DNA from: an uncultured Erysipelotrichaceae bacterium
Lineage (GTDB): Bacteria; Bacillota_I; Bacilli_A; RF39; UBA660
Reading direction: 5' to 3'
Assembly (NCBI GenBank): GCA_902801685.1
Contig: CADCIZ010000007.1
Coordinates: 1 to 39,677 of the forward strand
DNA: 39,677 nucleotides
Below the pieces are notes generated by a model, which saw only the letters and a program-made list of their open reading frames with translations, was not told where the DNA came from and searched no databases. Below, piece by piece: positions 15,470 through 34,675 of the stretch. Each line of letters opens with the position of its first letter. Positions within the stretch are counted from its first letter, which is position 1. The position numbers were made by a program, and so were the translations under genes.

Positions 15470-17959
15470 CTATTCTTCTCTTAAAGCTATTACTGGATCT
15501 TTCTTACTTGCTATCTTCGACGGAACTAATCCTGCAATAAATGTTAAGAATACACTTATTAATATTAATACTAGTGCGGCAGATAGAGGTAAATGCATGA
15601 TATTATTTATATTTAACGCATGCGATACTATAACATTACCAAGTAACGATAATAGTAGAGTAATTATAATACCTAGTATTCCTGCTGCAAGACCTTCAAT
15701 TATCGCTTCTGCATTAAATACACGAGATATATCTTTTTTACGTGCACCAATTGCTCTTAATATTCCTATTTCTTTCCTTCTTTCAAGTACTGATATATAA
15801 GTAATAATACCTATCATTATACTAGATACAACAAGAGAAATACCTACAAAAGCAATTAATACATAACTAATAACATTTACAATAGATGTTACACTTTTCA
15901 TCATCATACCAACTGTATCAGTATAAGTTATTTTATCTGCTTCACTTTTTTTACTATTATACTTTTTAATAATATCAACAATTTTATCTTTAGATTTAAA
16001 ATCTTTAGGATAAATATTTATTTTATCTGGATCATCAGTATCAACTGAGCCTAATTTCTTTAAATTATCTTGGTATGTACATTTAGTATCCATAATATTC
16101 TCTATATAAGATTTAATATCTACATCGCTTAATGTATAAATACTAGGATCAATACTAATATTTATATCATCAAAACTTCTACCGGTAAATACATTTATAC
16201 CAGGATTTTCTCTTTGACTTTTTACTATTTCACTATCATTAATTTTATCAATTACATAATTAGTTAAATCTTTAGTATAACCAATAGCTCCCGTAGTAGT
16301 TAAAGCAGTATCTTCATGCGATTTTATTATACCTACCACTCTAATAGTTTCACCACTATTTACCAACTCATTTACATAATCATCATTATTAGATTTATCA
16401 ATCCATATACCATTTTCAAGCACATAATAATCACTATTAAATACTAGTTTATAATTTAATCCTAATAAATCATCATAATTATATTCTTCTATTTTTGATT
16501 TAGCATCTTCGCCATTTTCACTTTTCTTAACCATATCTTCTAATTCACTTTTGCTTTTTAACCCTAATGCATATAAAGTATAATCACTAATCTCGTTATT
16601 AGAATCAATCATCACAACTACTTCATTATAATTCTTAGGAAGATTTCCAGCAACTAAATCATAATTATCAAGTAACATCTTATCATTATCAAATAATTCT
16701 ACAAAGACATTGTTATTATCAGAAAATTGCATAAACCTACTAATTACTCCTAAGTTTTCATAAATATTGGTTGGATTTACCTTTAAAGTATTACCATCAA
16801 CATCAGTTGTAAATAAATTTATATCTAAATCATATCCATACTGGATATCATTTGCATACTTACTTATATTTTTATTATTATCAATATAAGTCTTAAAGTC
16901 CTTTAAGTTATTAACCTTTACTTTAAAAGATGTAAGTAAGTCGTTTAAGACATTATTAGAACGTATTTTATCATCTTTATAATGCTTACTTTTAGTCTTC
17001 ATCATATTCAGCATCATACTAGTCATATCCATAGAATTCTTCTCAACAGTAAGTGGATAATTAGATAATGCTTCTTCTTCCTTATCATTTATATAATTTG
17101 ATACACCATTAGATAAACTAAGTATTAAAGCAATGCCAATAATACCAATAGAACCCGCAAAAGCAGTTAAAAATGTTCTTGCTTTTTTAGTCATTAAATT
17201 ATTTAAACTAAGACTCATAGCTGTTAGAAATGACATCGATGTTTTCTTACCAATAGTTGAATTAGCTGACTCTTCTTCACCATCATATTTATTGGAGTCA
17301 TCTATAATCTCACCATCTTTTAGCTTAACTATTCTAGTTGAATAATCTCGTGCAAGTTCTGGATTATGAGTTACCATGATAACTAATCTATCAGCGGCAA
17401 TCTCTTTTAACAAAACCATAATCTGTACACTAGTTTTACTATCTAACGCACCAGTAGGTTCATCAGCAAGTAATATATCTGGATCATTTACTAAGGCTCT
17501 TGCAATCGCAACACGTTGCATCTGACCTCCTGACATCTCACTAGGTTTCTTATGCGCGTGCTCTTTAAGTCCCACTTTTTTTAAAGCATCAAGTGCTCTT
17601 TTTCTTCTTTCTTTTTTACCTACTCCACTTAAAGTTAATGCAAGTTCTACATTCGATAGAGCTGTTTGATGCGATATTAGATTATAACTTTGAAATACAA
17701 ATCCTACTTTATGATTACGATATGTATCCCAATTACTATCTTTATACTTTTTTGTACTAATACCATTAATAATTAAATCTCCTGTTGTGTATCTATCAAG
17801 TCCACCAATAATGTTTAACATAGTAGTTTTACCACTACCAGAAGCCCCTAATATAGATACAAATTCATTATCTCTAAACTTAATACTAACTTTATTAAGA
17901 GCTTTTTGAGTTAATTCTTTTGTTTTATAAATTTTAGTAACATTTTTTAATTCAAGCAT
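15470..17959 (-). CDS. Fused ABC transporter ATPase-permease (MacB/FtsX type)
   Basis: An 829-residue fusion. The N-terminal ATPase has Walker A GASGSGKT (38-45), the Q-loop FVFQSYN, signature SGGQMQR (143-149), Walker B ILLADEP (162-168) and the switch MVTHN. A first membrane helix follows (about 262-285), then a large extracytoplasmic region of about 400 residues. Three C-terminal FtsX helices contain ERRKEIGILRAIGARKKDI and end near AGLVPSKIASKKDPVIALR. Such proteins are mechanotransmission or export machines for lipoproteins, peptides or antibiotics rather than classic importers. The substrate is unknown and there is no adjacent two-component system. GGTG lies before the ATG; a TATAAT at 17985-17990 is the likely -10. 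Confidence 0.93.
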   Translation of the reverse strand: MLELKNVTKIYKTKELTQKALNKVSIKFRDNEFVSILGASGSGKTTMLNIIGGLDRYTTGDLIINGISTKKYKDSNWDTYRNHKVGFVFQSYNLISHQTALSNVELALTLSGVGKKERRKRALDALKKVGLKEHAHKKPSEMSGGQMQRVAIARALVNDPDILLADEPTGALDSKTSVQIMVLLKEIAADRLVIMVTHNPELARDYSTRIVKLKDGEIIDDSNKYDGEEESANSTIGKKTSMSFLTAMSLSLNNLMTKKARTFLTAFAGSIGIIGIALILSLSNGVSNYINDKEEEALSNYPLTVEKNSMDMTSMMLNMMKTKSKHYKDDKIRSNNVLNDLLTSFKVKVNNLKDFKTYIDNNKNISKYANDIQYGYDLDINLFTTDVDGNTLKVNPTNIYENLGVISRFMQFSDNNNVFVELFDNDKMLLDNYDLVAGNLPKNYNEVVVMIDSNNEISDYTLYALGLKSKSELEDMVKKSENGEDAKSKIEEYNYDDLLGLNYKLVFNSDYYVLENGIWIDKSNNDDYVNELVNSGETIRVVGIIKSHEDTALTTTGAIGYTKDLTNYVIDKINDSEIVKSQRENPGINVFTGRSFDDINISIDPSIYTLSDVDIKSYIENIMDTKCTYQDNLKKLGSVDTDDPDKINIYPKDFKSKDKIVDIIKKYNSKKSEADKITYTDTVGMMMKSVTSIVNVISYVLIAFVGISLVVSSIMIGIITYISVLERRKEIGILRAIGARKKDISRVFNAEAIIEGLAAGILGIIITLLLSLLGNVIVSHALNINNIMHLPLSAALVLILISVFLTFIAGLVPSKIASKKDPVIALREE

Positions 17960-18025
17960 ATTTCACCTTTTCCTTCCTATTAATATTATACAACAAAACT
18001 AGTATATTTTCCTTTTTTGTAGTGA

Positions 18026-24719: not shown

Positions 24720-25610
24720 CTAAGATATTCCATCTATCTCATCTACACTTAATCCAGTTATTTTTACAATATCTTCTATTTTATAGTTAGCAGCCTTCAT
24801 ATTCTTAACAATATCAATTTCCTTTTCTTTAGAACCTTGGCGGGTACCTTGTTCAATTCCTTGTTTAAGTCCTTCTTTAATCCCTTCTTGTTTTCCACTA
24901 ATAAATATACTATTTTCTATCATTTCTCTATCTTCATCATCTGTCATTGCTTGATAAAAATTAGGATCTCCATTTAGCTTAATAACATCATCTTTAATCT
25001 TTTTCATATAACAATCACTATCCTCCAGAGTTTTAAGTTCTTCTTCATCAAATCCAAACATTATGATGCTTTTAAACTGTTCATAATATTCCTTGGATTT
25101 ACCTGAATTATACCATTTATACTTATAATAATCAACATCAATATCAATCGTTTTCATAAATGGTATAGTAACCTCTCCGGTAGATAAATCACCATATTGT
25201 GATATTTTATAACCTTTCTTCTTTCCTTTTTGAAAGTTAAAGTTAAATTGAACGTGTTCTTTTACATCTACAAACTTTTTATCTTTCTTCATGCTTTCGA
25301 TTGTAGATGATGCGAGATAAAAGAAATTTCTATATGTTCTATAATCGTCATATATAACATTAACCTCAATATTTAATACTTTACTTCCAATATCTACTAA
25401 GATATCTACAACTTTATTTTTTATATAAAGTCTATCTTTAGTCAGTTCAGTATTGAGTACTTTAACTTTGTCAATATGAACATCATCATAAAAAATTGAT
25501 AGAATATCGCTTAAGAATCTTTTTAGAAGATTATTATCCCTATAGAAGACATTTTTAAAAACTGGATCTGCTTTTAATGTGTAAAAATTAGTACTATTCT
25601 CTTTTGACAT
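24720..25610 (-). CDS. Rpn-family PD-(D/E)XK nuclease/putative transposase, copy 1
   Basis: A 296-residue Rpn/PDDEXK_2-type protein. The start ADPVFKNVF is the family's PDxxFKxxF motif. The nuclease core is VVDILVDIGSKVLNIEVN (around 65-82), with Asp and Glu of the active site present but Asn where the family usually has Gln. The C-terminus has a polar helix of GxxxG-like units (KQEGIKEGLKQGIEQGTRQG) and a small HTH-like end (IEDIVKITGLSVDEID). RpnA of E. coli promotes recombination. The ATG at 25610 follows AGGAGGG; an earlier TTG at 25640 lies inside the promoter. A paralogue lies at 32902-34017 and shares the same upstream block. Confidence 0.88.
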   Translation of the reverse strand: MSKENSTNFYTLKADPVFKNVFYRDNNLLKRFLSDILSIFYDDVHIDKVKVLNTELTKDRLYIKNKVVDILVDIGSKVLNIEVNVIYDDYRTYRNFFYLASSTIESMKKDKKFVDVKEHVQFNFNFQKGKKKGYKISQYGDLSTGEVTIPFMKTIDIDVDYYKYKWYNSGKSKEYYEQFKSIIMFGFDEEELKTLEDSDCYMKKIKDDVIKLNGDPNFYQAMTDDEDREMIENSIFISGKQEGIKEGLKQGIEQGTRQGSKEKEIDIVKNMKAANYKIEDIVKITGLSVDEIDGIS

Positions 25611-25629
25611 ATTTTCCCTCCTACTTATA

Positions 25630-25658
25630 TTATTCAACAAAACTTTTCAAATTCCTTC
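25630..25658 (-). promoter_or_regulatory. Sigma-H-type promoter of Rpn copy 1
   Basis: On the minus strand GAAGGAATT (25650-25658) and GTTGAATAA (25630-25638) are 11 bp apart. Both fit the Bacillus sigma-H consensus RnAGGAwWW and RnnGAATww at the right spacing. The same arrangement precedes the second Rpn gene. Confidence 0.65.
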
Positions 25659-25666
25659 TTTTTACG

Positions 25667-25697
25667 ACAAAAAAAAGATTAAAACCGTTAATCTTTT
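25667..25697 (-). terminator. Terminator of the VTC-DUF4956 operon
   Basis: A 10-bp stem (AAAAGATTAA/TTAATCTTTT) is followed by eight T on the minus strand. The T-tract directly joins the sigma-H-like promoter of the next gene. Confidence 0.85.
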
Positions 25698-27190: not shown

Positions 27191-28507
27191 TTACTTAGTT
27201 AATTCTCTAATTAGAAATGCAGCATATAATGGAACAGATTTAATCTTAGTATCTGGATTGTATCCAAAATCCTTAGTACTTAATCTTATCATATATTTTG
27301 GACTATATAACTCATTATAAACCTTTAAACTTTTAGATTGAGTATTATCATCTGCTTTTACCTCTATTGGAATAACACCATCATCTGTACTTAATAGAAA
27401 ATCTATCTCTGAATTTCTCGCACCTTTCCAATATAATAAATCTATACCATTTGCTTTTAATTGATTAGCTACATAGTTTTCAGTAATAATACCTTTATAT
27501 ATCTTCATATCATCTAAAACAATTGATTTTGCATCATTATTGACTATTCTATTAAATATTCCAACATCAGAATAATATACTTTAAATGTATCATTATCCA
27601 CAAAACCAAGAAGTGGCTTTTCAGGTAATTTTACGCACTTACAGATTTGAATCATATTACTTTCTTCTAGCCAATTTAGAGGTAGAGAATATTCCCTTGA
27701 TTTAGCGCTCGAATCAACTACAGAGTATTGAAATTTTTTTGATAAATTTTGTAACTGCGCAGATAATGATGAATATATTTTTCTAATTTTTAATGTTTCA
27801 TTAGAATTATTAACATGATTATTCATATCATTTTTATAGTCCTCTATGATATCATTTAAAATACTTAAATCATAATTATAATAATCGCTATTACATTCTA
27901 TCAATTTTTTTACACTATCAGGCATTCCACCAGATAACAAATAGCTTTTATATAACTCTAGCGCTTTATTATGTATTACTCCCATTGATTTATTATTTAT
28001 AAAGCATTCTTTTATATAATCAATTAACATATCTTCACCCTGTGCCATTAAAAACTCTTCAAAATCCATAGGATATAAGTATAATCTATTAACCTTTCCT
28101 ACTGGAAAAGGTTTTTTAAGTCTTGCAAGTTTTACACCAAGTAAACTTCCTGCACATATAATTCTAACATTACTATGATTCTCATTGAAATATTTTAATT
28201 CAGAAATTAGTTCTTCACACTGTTGAATCTCATCAATAAACAATATTGAATCTTCTTTCTCAAAATCAAAATCTATTAGTAATTTCAAATCATTATATTT
28301 TTGCTTAGAATTTTTATTCGATTTATATAGTTCAATTACATCAGTATCTTCAAAAAGATTTATCTTCTTATAATTCTTAAATTCATTTTTACAAAACTCA
28401 TCAATTATATATGTCTTACCACATTGTCTTACACCAAGTACAATAAGTGGTTTAAAGTTTTTATTACCCTTCCATTTTAGCAAATCATCATAAATTTTTC
28501 TTTTCAT
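27191..28507 (-). CDS. AAA ATPase with DUF4143 nuclease-like C-terminus
   Basis: A 438-residue ATP-binding protein. Walker A is GVRQCGKT (25-32) and Walker B is SILFIDEIQQ (87-96). The sensor region IICAGSLLGVKL and YLYPMDFEEFLMA are typical of this family. The C-terminal DUF4143 part has YWKGARNSEIDFLL...IPIEVKADD, a PD-(D/E)XK-like core with Asp, Glu and Lys in place. Cellular role is not known; such genes are scattered accessory genes. It lies between the VTC gene and cotH and seems inserted into that module. GGAGG precedes the ATG, and two 23-bp repeats lie in its promoter. Confidence 0.9.
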   Translation of the reverse strand: MKRKIYDDLLKWKGNKNFKPLIVLGVRQCGKTYIIDEFCKNEFKNYKKINLFEDTDVIELYKSNKNSKQKYNDLKLLIDFDFEKEDSILFIDEIQQCEELISELKYFNENHSNVRIICAGSLLGVKLARLKKPFPVGKVNRLYLYPMDFEEFLMAQGEDMLIDYIKECFINNKSMGVIHNKALELYKSYLLSGGMPDSVKKLIECNSDYYNYDLSILNDIIEDYKNDMNNHVNNSNETLKIRKIYSSLSAQLQNLSKKFQYSVVDSSAKSREYSLPLNWLEESNMIQICKCVKLPEKPLLGFVDNDTFKVYYSDVGIFNRIVNNDAKSIVLDDMKIYKGIITENYVANQLKANGIDLLYWKGARNSEIDFLLSTDDGVIPIEVKADDNTQSKSLKVYNELYSPKYMIRLSTKDFGYNPDTKIKSVPLYAAFLIRELTK

Positions 28508-32901: not shown

Positions 32902-34017
32902 TTACAATTTATCAATTTCTTCTTTAGATAAACCTGTTGTATTAGAAATAATAGAAATATCAACTAATGCATCTTTTAATTTTTTTGCTATATCTTTCTT
33001 ATTTTTTTCAGTTACTTCTTTGGTTACTTTCTTTGTCACATCCTTCGTTACTTGTTCTGTTACATCTTTTGTTACTTGCTTTGTTACCTGTTCTGTTACC
33101 TGTTCTGTAATTTCTTCAGTTGCCTTTTTTACTTCATGACGCAAATCATATACATATGCCATCTTCATAGCTTTCTCTGCATCATACATGTAAACTAAAT
33201 TATCATCATTACTATATCTCTTCACAGTATCACCAATCTCCTTTAATACGTTATCATTTCCTGCTATCTTATACAATTCATCGATATTATCTATACCAAG
33301 CGATCCCACTACACGATCAAACTTAGATAACTCATTTGCATCTTTAGTATAACATAGTTTAGTATAATAATCTACATTAATATTGATGATTTTTAACTGT
33401 TCTGTATATCTATAAGTTATATCTTCTTCATCAAATACCCCCATCTTTGATAAATGTTTCTTGTTTGTATCAACAGTATTGAAATTGATTTGAATAACAT
33501 TATCAGTATCTTCTATAGCTCCTCCAAAAACATCTTCTATATAAATTATATTATCTTCATCATAATCAACATCACTTAATTCTATTTCTTCACATTCATC
33601 TTTATCAATTGGTTCATGACCTTTATTATCAACTTTAGAATTTTCAAGATAATCTTGCTGTCCTATAAGTCTACATAAGTACTTGAAGTTTCTTTCTTTA
33701 GACCAAATGAAAGATGAATTAATCTCAATATTACATAAACCTTCACCTTCAATCTCACATACTAAATCAACTGCTCTTTTCTTAATCTTTCTTGCAAGGC
33801 CAATTAATTCATTATTAATAATTCTAATTACTTTAACGTCTTTATTAAGAACTGTTGATAGAAGCATATCTAATCTTTCTAGATGATTTTCATCAGCAAA
33901 TACCTTCTTAAAAGACCTATCTACAAGCATCGGTACGACCTCTCCAGGTTCAAGTTCTCTAGTATACACACTAACCTTTTTACCTTTTATTCTTTTTAAC
34001 ATAATTTTTTTGCTCAT
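32902..34017 (-). CDS. Rpn-family PD-(D/E)XK nuclease/putative transposase, copy 2
   Basis: A 371-residue paralogue of the gene at 24720. It has the entry motif DRSFKKVF (33-40) and the core RAVDLVCEIEGEGLCNIEIN (81-100) with Asp84 and Glu98, again with Asn where Gln is usual. A variable acidic middle (135-205) and a C-terminal tail of VTxx units (303-337) follow, ending in the HTH-like ISIISNTTGLSKEEIDKL. GGAGG lies five bases before the ATG. The upstream sigma-H-like block is shared with copy 1, although the coding sequences have diverged widely. Confidence 0.82.
   Translation of the reverse strand: MSKKIMLKRIKGKKVSVYTRELEPGEVVPMLVDRSFKKVFADENHLERLDMLLSTVLNKDVKVIRIINNELIGLARKIKKRAVDLVCEIEGEGLCNIEINSSFIWSKERNFKYLCRLIGQQDYLENSKVDNKGHEPIDKDECEEIELSDVDYDEDNIIYIEDVFGGAIEDTDNVIQINFNTVDTNKKHLSKMGVFDEEDITYRYTEQLKIININVDYYTKLCYTKDANELSKFDRVVGSLGIDNIDELYKIAGNDNVLKEIGDTVKRYSNDDNLVYMYDAEKAMKMAYVYDLRHEVKKATEEITEQVTEQVTKQVTKDVTEQVTKDVTKKVTKEVTEKNKKDIAKKLKDALVDISIISNTTGLSKEEIDKL
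33007..33111 (-). repeat. 12-bp coding repeats (EQVT/KDVT units) in Rpn copy 2
   Basis: About nine degenerate 12-base units encode the tetrapeptide xxVT, forming a polar, probably coiled-coil stalk. Confidence 0.75.
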
Positions 34018-34038
34018 GTAAACCTCCTTCTATATATA

Positions 34039-34067
34039 TTATTCGACAAAACTTTTATATTTCCTTC
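34039..34067 (-). promoter_or_regulatory. Sigma-H-type promoter of Rpn copy 2
   Basis: GAAGGAAAT (34059-34067) and GTCGAATAA (34039-34047) are 11 bp apart on the minus strand. They match the sigma-H consensus in both boxes and the spacing of copy 1. Confidence 0.7.
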
Positions 34068-34077
34068 TTTTTTCGTC

Positions 34078-34107
34078 AAAAAAAACAAGAAATTATAAAT
34101 TTCTTGT
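34078..34107 (-). terminator. Terminator of the infC-rpmI-rplT operon
   Basis: A perfect 10-bp stem (ACAAGAAATT/AATTTCTTGT, loop of three) is followed by eight T on the minus strand. Confidence 0.9.
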
Positions 34108-34126: not shown

Positions 34127-34675
34127 TTATTTTTCTAAAGCAGCAACTAATTCTGCCTTCTTCATTGTAGTATATCCTGAGATATTTTTTTCTTTGGCTA
34201 AACTTTTTAATTCAGCAACAGTCATTTTAGAATAATCAACTTTTTCTTTCTTTTCAACCTTAGCAGAACTCTTTTCTTCTACTTTTCTGGCAGTAGTTTT
34301 AGTTTCAGTTTTTGTAACTTTTGGAGCCTTACCAGTTTTTGCAAGTTCTACCAAATTAGCAAATGCAGCCTCATCATTAATAGCGATTTCACTTAACATC
34401 TTTCTATTAATTTCAACTCCAGCTTTATTTAAACCATTTATGAATTTAGAGTAACTAATACCATTCATTCTGCAAGCAGCATTGATTCTTGTAATCCATA
34501 ATTTACGCATTTCACGTTTGTTTTGTCTTCTATCTCTATATGCATATTTTAATGAATGCATTACTTGTTCTTTAGCTGTTTTGTATAATTTATGTTTACT
34601 TCCAAAATAACCTTTAGCTTGTTTTAAAACTTTAACTCTTCTATTTTTATGGATATTACTTCCTTTAACTCTCAT
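34127..34675 (-). CDS. rplT: Ribosomal protein L20 with an extra Rho-N/SAP-like domain
   Basis: Residues 1-114 are a full L20 ([66 protein letters not shown]). L20 helps 50S assembly and represses its own operon. Normal L20 ends near residue 118; this one continues to 182. A Lys/Thr/Glu linker (115-146) leads to a 35-residue unit, [22 protein letters not shown]...[11 protein letters not shown] (148-181). This fits the Rho-N/SAP helix-extended-loop-helix fold, which binds nucleic acid. The frame has no break and stops just before the operon terminator. GGAGG precedes the ATG. Confidence 0.95.

Follow-up and report, generated by a model that had tools for sequence, protein, structure and literature searches.

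A likely sigma-H/ComX-type promoter block upstream of Rpn-family nuclease genes in an uncultured Erysipelotrichaceae bacterium, and the competence-like regulon it appears to define

Overexpression of sigH in Listeria led to the description of sigma-H promoters before the LMRG_00908-dnaG-rpoD operon, comEABC, comG, coiA and lytG, with boxes that include GAAGGAAAT and GTCGAAT and 11 nt between them (PMC4754846). In the pneumococcus, a ComX promoter located after dpnM drives dpnA and dpnB (PMC3573125), and the core SigX regulon of streptococci includes comEA, comEC and, in DpnII strains, dpnA (PMC5069739). Rpn nucleases occur widely, but opinions on their role differ: they are regarded either as helpers of horizontal transfer or as anti-phage toxins. 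In E. coli RpnC, the number of four-residue repeats sets antitoxin matching (PMC10327210). No report tying Rpn to competence was found in the literature searched. Here we describe a block upstream of two Rpn-family genes in a window of 39,677 nucleotides (the whole stretch of DNA that was analysed); this window, contig C7, is one of the 75 contigs that make up a draft genome of 1.31 Mb. This block is likely to be the sigma-H/ComX-type promoter of a competence-like regulon that took in Rpn genes.

The two blocks (25626-25676 and 34035-34085, both on the minus strand) are identical at 45 of 51 positions, exactly as counted by eye in the sequence-only reading that first pointed to them, whereas Markov-shuffled upstream regions gave a best 51-mer match of 31/51 in 100 trials. 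A pattern derived from the block has two exact matches in the window versus none in 100 dinucleotide shuffles. Both copies also carry, as had been claimed, the full Bacillus sigma-H consensus RnAGGAwWW-N11-RnnGAATww, with boxes GAAGGAATT and GTTGAATAA in copy 1 and GAAGGAAAT and GTCGAATAA in copy 2, each pair separated by 11 bp. Copy 1 (25621-25664, minus strand) lies upstream of the Rpn gene at 24720-25610; its -35-like box, which matches RnAGGAwWW, occupies 25650-25658 (minus strand) and is followed after 11 bp by the -10-like box GTTGAAT (25632-25638, minus strand), matching RnnGAAT. Copy 2 (34030-34073, minus strand) precedes the Rpn gene at 32902-34017; its -35-like box (34059-34067, minus strand) is identical to that of the mapped Listeria lytG sigma-H promoter, and its -10-like box GTCGAAT (34041-34047, minus strand) is shared with the LMRG_00908-dnaG-rpoD operon, where some Listeria species have this same -10 sequence. 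A sigma-A promoter was rejected as a reading of the block, since at neither Rpn site did any minus-strand candidate clearly exceed the shuffle rate, in line with the earlier impression. A leader peptide was also considered and rejected: a TTG frame crosses some blocks (LLNNISRR, LSYIIYR), but a stop interrupts it in one G012 copy, and the start codon is absent from some of the dnaG copies.

The genes downstream have changed far more than the blocks, as the sequence-only reading held, the two Rpn proteins being about 30% identical. The gene at 24720-25610 (minus strand, 296 aa) matches NCBIfam TIGR01784 with E 2e-11 and 44.2 bits, below the curated cut-off of 52.1, and the gene at 32902-34017 (minus strand, 371 aa) was assigned by alignment, its TIGR01784 score (E 1.7e-4, 21.5 bits) being well below that cut-off; the relative L011 exceeds it with 60.3 bits. 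Some of the Rpn assignments used below combine weak profile scores with alignment. Near the C terminus of the 371-aa protein, a 12-nt repeat (33011-33094) encodes four-residue units (VTEQ/VTKD), reminiscent of those in E. coli RpnC (PMC10327210). Genes for AAA_14/DUF4143-type ATPases (27191-28507, the only one for which the assignment was profile-tested, L459:3206-4501 and L210:501-1853) recur near Rpn genes and beside sigH. By eye, the product of 34127-34675 resembles ribosomal protein L20 with a C-terminal extension like a SAP/Rho-N domain.

A third block, overlooked in the sequence-only reading, lies in the window at 17977-18020 (minus strand); it is a weaker copy (E 2e-8) with AAAGGAAAA, a 12-bp spacer and GTTGTAT, and it precedes a gene for a MacB-like ABC transporter with an FtsX permease (15470-17959, minus strand; Pfam PF00005 and PF02687). 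Across the draft genome, BLASTN and a sequence model (R1) together gave 21 clear copies, copy 1 among them, with E values of 0.003 or less and then a gap up to 0.055. A multi-genus model (R2) returned the same set and a borderline site at C1:1523 (E 0.055) with a diverged spacer, upstream of the C1 Rpn gene, so that about 19 further copies exist elsewhere in the genome, beyond the three in the window. None of the 22 copies lies inside a gene body, and all those with a downstream gene on the contig point toward that gene; some show no start downstream because an alternative start codon falls within the block, and the copies on C24 and C58 run into contig ends. Against the objection, raised in the sequence-only reading, that the motif might be equally common in random intergenic DNA, it is rare and placed only before genes.

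About nine Rpn-like genes follow the block in this genome (24720-25610, 32902-34017, C15, C9, C6, C13, C37, C1:36672 and C1:628), of which those at C15, C9 and C1:36672 are broken; at the C1 gene with the diverged spacer the two boxes are conserved. Some Rpn genes have no block. The remaining targets are of other kinds. In this genome the block precedes dnaG, followed by rpoD; it precedes comEA, followed by comEC, here and in G003 and G006, and comEA in G031. It is found within a dpnM-dpnA-dpnB cluster (DpnM, PF02086; DpnA, PF01555; DpnB, PF04556 with E 5e-106), where the promoter stands just downstream of dpnM and before dpnA, a position seen at L014/L456 and, in G004, at L108/L458. A C39-peptidase ABC exporter gene under the block is followed by one gene and two genes for double-glycine peptides, one of which matches a class IIb bacteriocin family, forming a bacteriocin-export operon. 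Such a peptide pair (one ending in DGxxRPLxC, the other with GRSLGTxxRRI) adjoins the C39 exporter in three genera (L453:4693-5003; L454:3198-3515 in G031; L455:267-597 in G034). Additionally, the block precedes a UvrD-like helicase gene, two KilA-N genes, a TED/SpaA surface protein gene, an ftsK gene that is cut by a contig end and was named through its G031 counterpart, and, besides the ABC transporter of the window, a C42 gene of unknown family.

The block is present across genus g1 and several other genera of the family, and its most constant target is dnaG. Among named dnaG relatives, nearly all of them uncultured Bacilli or metagenome bins with labels of that kind, 64 of 80 loci exceed the 99th percentile of the background. 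In the 60 best dnaG sites, AAAGGAwwT and TGTCGTATATTA are conserved and positions 16-22 between them are variable, a combination of kept boxes and drifting spacer that selection on a promoter predicts. GTAT replaces GAAT at dnaG and comEA sites, as it does in the third window copy. In other genera or species the block is again found before the C39 operon and the genes for FtsK, the UvrD-like helicase, DpnA and KilA-N proteins, and in G031 it precedes RuvB. A matrix built from dnaG sites alone (threshold 10 bits) was passed by 44 of 65 Rpn upstream regions from this genome and 11 relatives versus 6 of 180 controls, these being genes within the retrieved loci rather than a random genome sample (Fisher p 6e-26, a value that overstates the certainty because copies are treated as independent).

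The Rpn -10 box is genome-specific (GTTGAAT here, GTCGAAT in G031, ATCGAAT in G002, AACTAAT in G004), which indicates joint evolution of the Rpn copies and the promoters in front of them inside each genome, and part of the likeness of Rpn blocks inside one genome is explained by shared ancestry. Such a pattern is also what duplication or gene conversion predicts, and the near identity of several Rpn blocks within one genome, together with the Rpn pseudogenes, would suit a block with no promoter role, either a repeat dispersed in the genome or upstream DNA carried over when Rpn genes were duplicated. We regard this explanation as highly improbable, given that unrelated genes (dnaG, comEA, dpnA, the C39 transporter, ftsK) are preceded by the block in several genera, that the copies avoid gene bodies and face their genes wherever these are visible, and that dnaG sites keep both boxes while the spacer drifts. 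A promoter function is supported because the link between Rpn and the block spans genera, and not by the likeness within one genome. In G004, all strong Rpn promoters read AACTAATAATATA for the GAAT box (L398, L430, L434, L437, L439, L441, L447, L450 and L451), and the dnaG promoter keeps GTCGTATATTA (GTCGTAT); this loss weighs against the sigma-H reading, as do the Rpn genes that have no block.

The sequence-only reading had called for a sigH- or comX-like sigma gene, and a sigH orthologue was found at G000:C25:7017-7607, after mrnC-rlmB, its usual locus by synteny; its best NCBIfam families are SigH, although the TIGR02859 match (E 5e-32) is below the cut-off of that family. Eight sigma genes were found in this genome, two of them RpoD-like paralogues, and either of the latter, for example, might read the promoter instead of sigma-H; in G005, a genome 90% complete, sigH was not detected, yet the dnaG promoter motif is kept. 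This is a very unlikely reading nonetheless, because mapped Listeria sigma-H promoters have the same consensus, spacing and dnaG and comE targets, and a sigH-like match was obtained in almost every genome of the family that was searched. We take sigma-H to be the most probable reader of the block.

The genome also encodes sigF, sigE, sigG, sigK and spo0A, and a developmental control was considered. No two-box site was found upstream of spoIIGA-sigE, sigG, sigK or spo0A, and spoIIAA has a half-match only: in L036 (minus strand), directly before its start, TAGTTTTGTCGAATGTG matches the block's second half and lacks the AGGA box. The second box might instead be chiefly a Spo0A box (TTTGTCGAA) overlapping the promoter, so that Spo0A would control the genes, repressing or activating them, either alone or jointly with sigma-H. 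The presence of spo0A is consistent with this, as is TTTTGTCGAAT, which copy 2 and the relative G031 carry and which fits a 0A box; it also stands upstream of spoIIAA; moreover, AAAGTTTT is conserved more than a sigma-H spacer requires. The Spo0A box TGNCGAA is nevertheless not kept across sites: TGTCGTA stands at most dnaG sites and AATCGTA in one clade, while the AAGGA box and the spacing are kept, and most copies of this genome read TGTTGAA or TGTYGTA, which makes control chiefly by Spo0A very unlikely.

Returning to the sigma-H/ComX-type promoter, the state in which it acts looks competence-like rather than sporulation-like, since no canonical sporulation target turned up in the regulon. 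The proposal that Rpn genes are tied to a developmental or DNA-uptake state, which is largely borne out but has to be broadened, thus finds support on its uptake side, to which comEA-comEC and dpnA-dpnB point, rather than for sporulation. Likewise, many Rpn genes here and in relatives do carry a sigma-H-type block, as proposed for a small Rpn regulon, but the regulon is mixed and not their own. The competence may be reduced or altered: DprA (PF02481) was not detected in this genus or in most of the family, which makes full transformation doubtful, recA has a plain sigma-A promoter, no block was seen near the best PF00437 (PilB-like, pilus-ATPase-like) loci, and G005 keeps the motif at dnaG without a detected sigH.

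We infer recognition of the block by sigma-H, competence as the state, a signal that would induce the regulon, and an action of Rpn on incoming or recombining DNA. In the proposed mechanism, the sigma-H orthologue, used much as in Listeria or like streptococcal ComX, would read the block and switch on DNA uptake through comEA-comEC, with dpnA-dpnB of the same set protecting incoming DNA. The same switch may drive the export of bacteriocin-like peptides and DNA processing by the UvrD-like helicase, FtsK and, in one relative, RuvB, as well as dnaG-rpoD, and a fast-changing accessory set would join this regulon, with Rpn nucleases as its largest group. More speculatively, and with rather little confidence on our part, Rpn proteins in these Bacilli, where DprA was not detected, could belong to the competence programme itself, produced alongside ComEA/ComEC and DpnA so that incoming DNA is processed, integrated or policed. 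This might follow the route, independent of RecA, that has been described for E. coli Rpn, with the Rpn set diversifying quickly under one switch. A common competence-type promoter would give Rpn action a concrete and testable time and setting. A competence-like regulon is thereby sketched for a gut lineage that is uncultured and carries spore genes, none having been found described for it in the literature searched, and the putative sigma-H link of dnaG-rpoD and comE extends from Listeria to this lineage.

Compared with the Listeria monocytogenes sigma-H regulon, the present one shares the -35 sequence AAAGGAwTT/GAAGGAAAT, a spacer of about 11 bp, the -10 sequence GTCGAAT and the dnaG-rpoD and comEA-EC targets; unlike in Listeria, genes for Rpn nucleases, KilA-N proteins and a surface protein are included, together with dpnA-dpnB and a bacteriocin operon, GTAT is found in many -10 boxes, and no comG or coiA target was found here (PMC4754846). 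With the streptococcal ComX/SigX regulon it has in common that an alternative-sigma promoter stands before comEA/comEC and before dpnA-dpnB, in the latter case after dpnM (PMC5069739, PMC3573125), whereas the sigma gene here is at the sigH locus, dprA was not detected, recA is outside the set, and dnaG-rpoD and Rpn are added. Lactobacillus sakei likewise provides a Firmicute in which a sigma-H orthologue turns on competence genes, but it is non-sporulating (PMC3364868), unlike this genome with its sigF, sigE, sigG, sigK and spo0A. Finally, the Rpn proteins resemble the YhgA-like Rpn of E. coli in the family profile (several members weakly), the conserved D and E positions, the variable C terminus and the four-residue repeats; regulation by an alternative sigma factor or a link to competence, in the literature searched, was not found described for E. 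coli Rpn (PMC5350276, PMC10327210), in contrast to the putative control proposed for the genes of this lineage.
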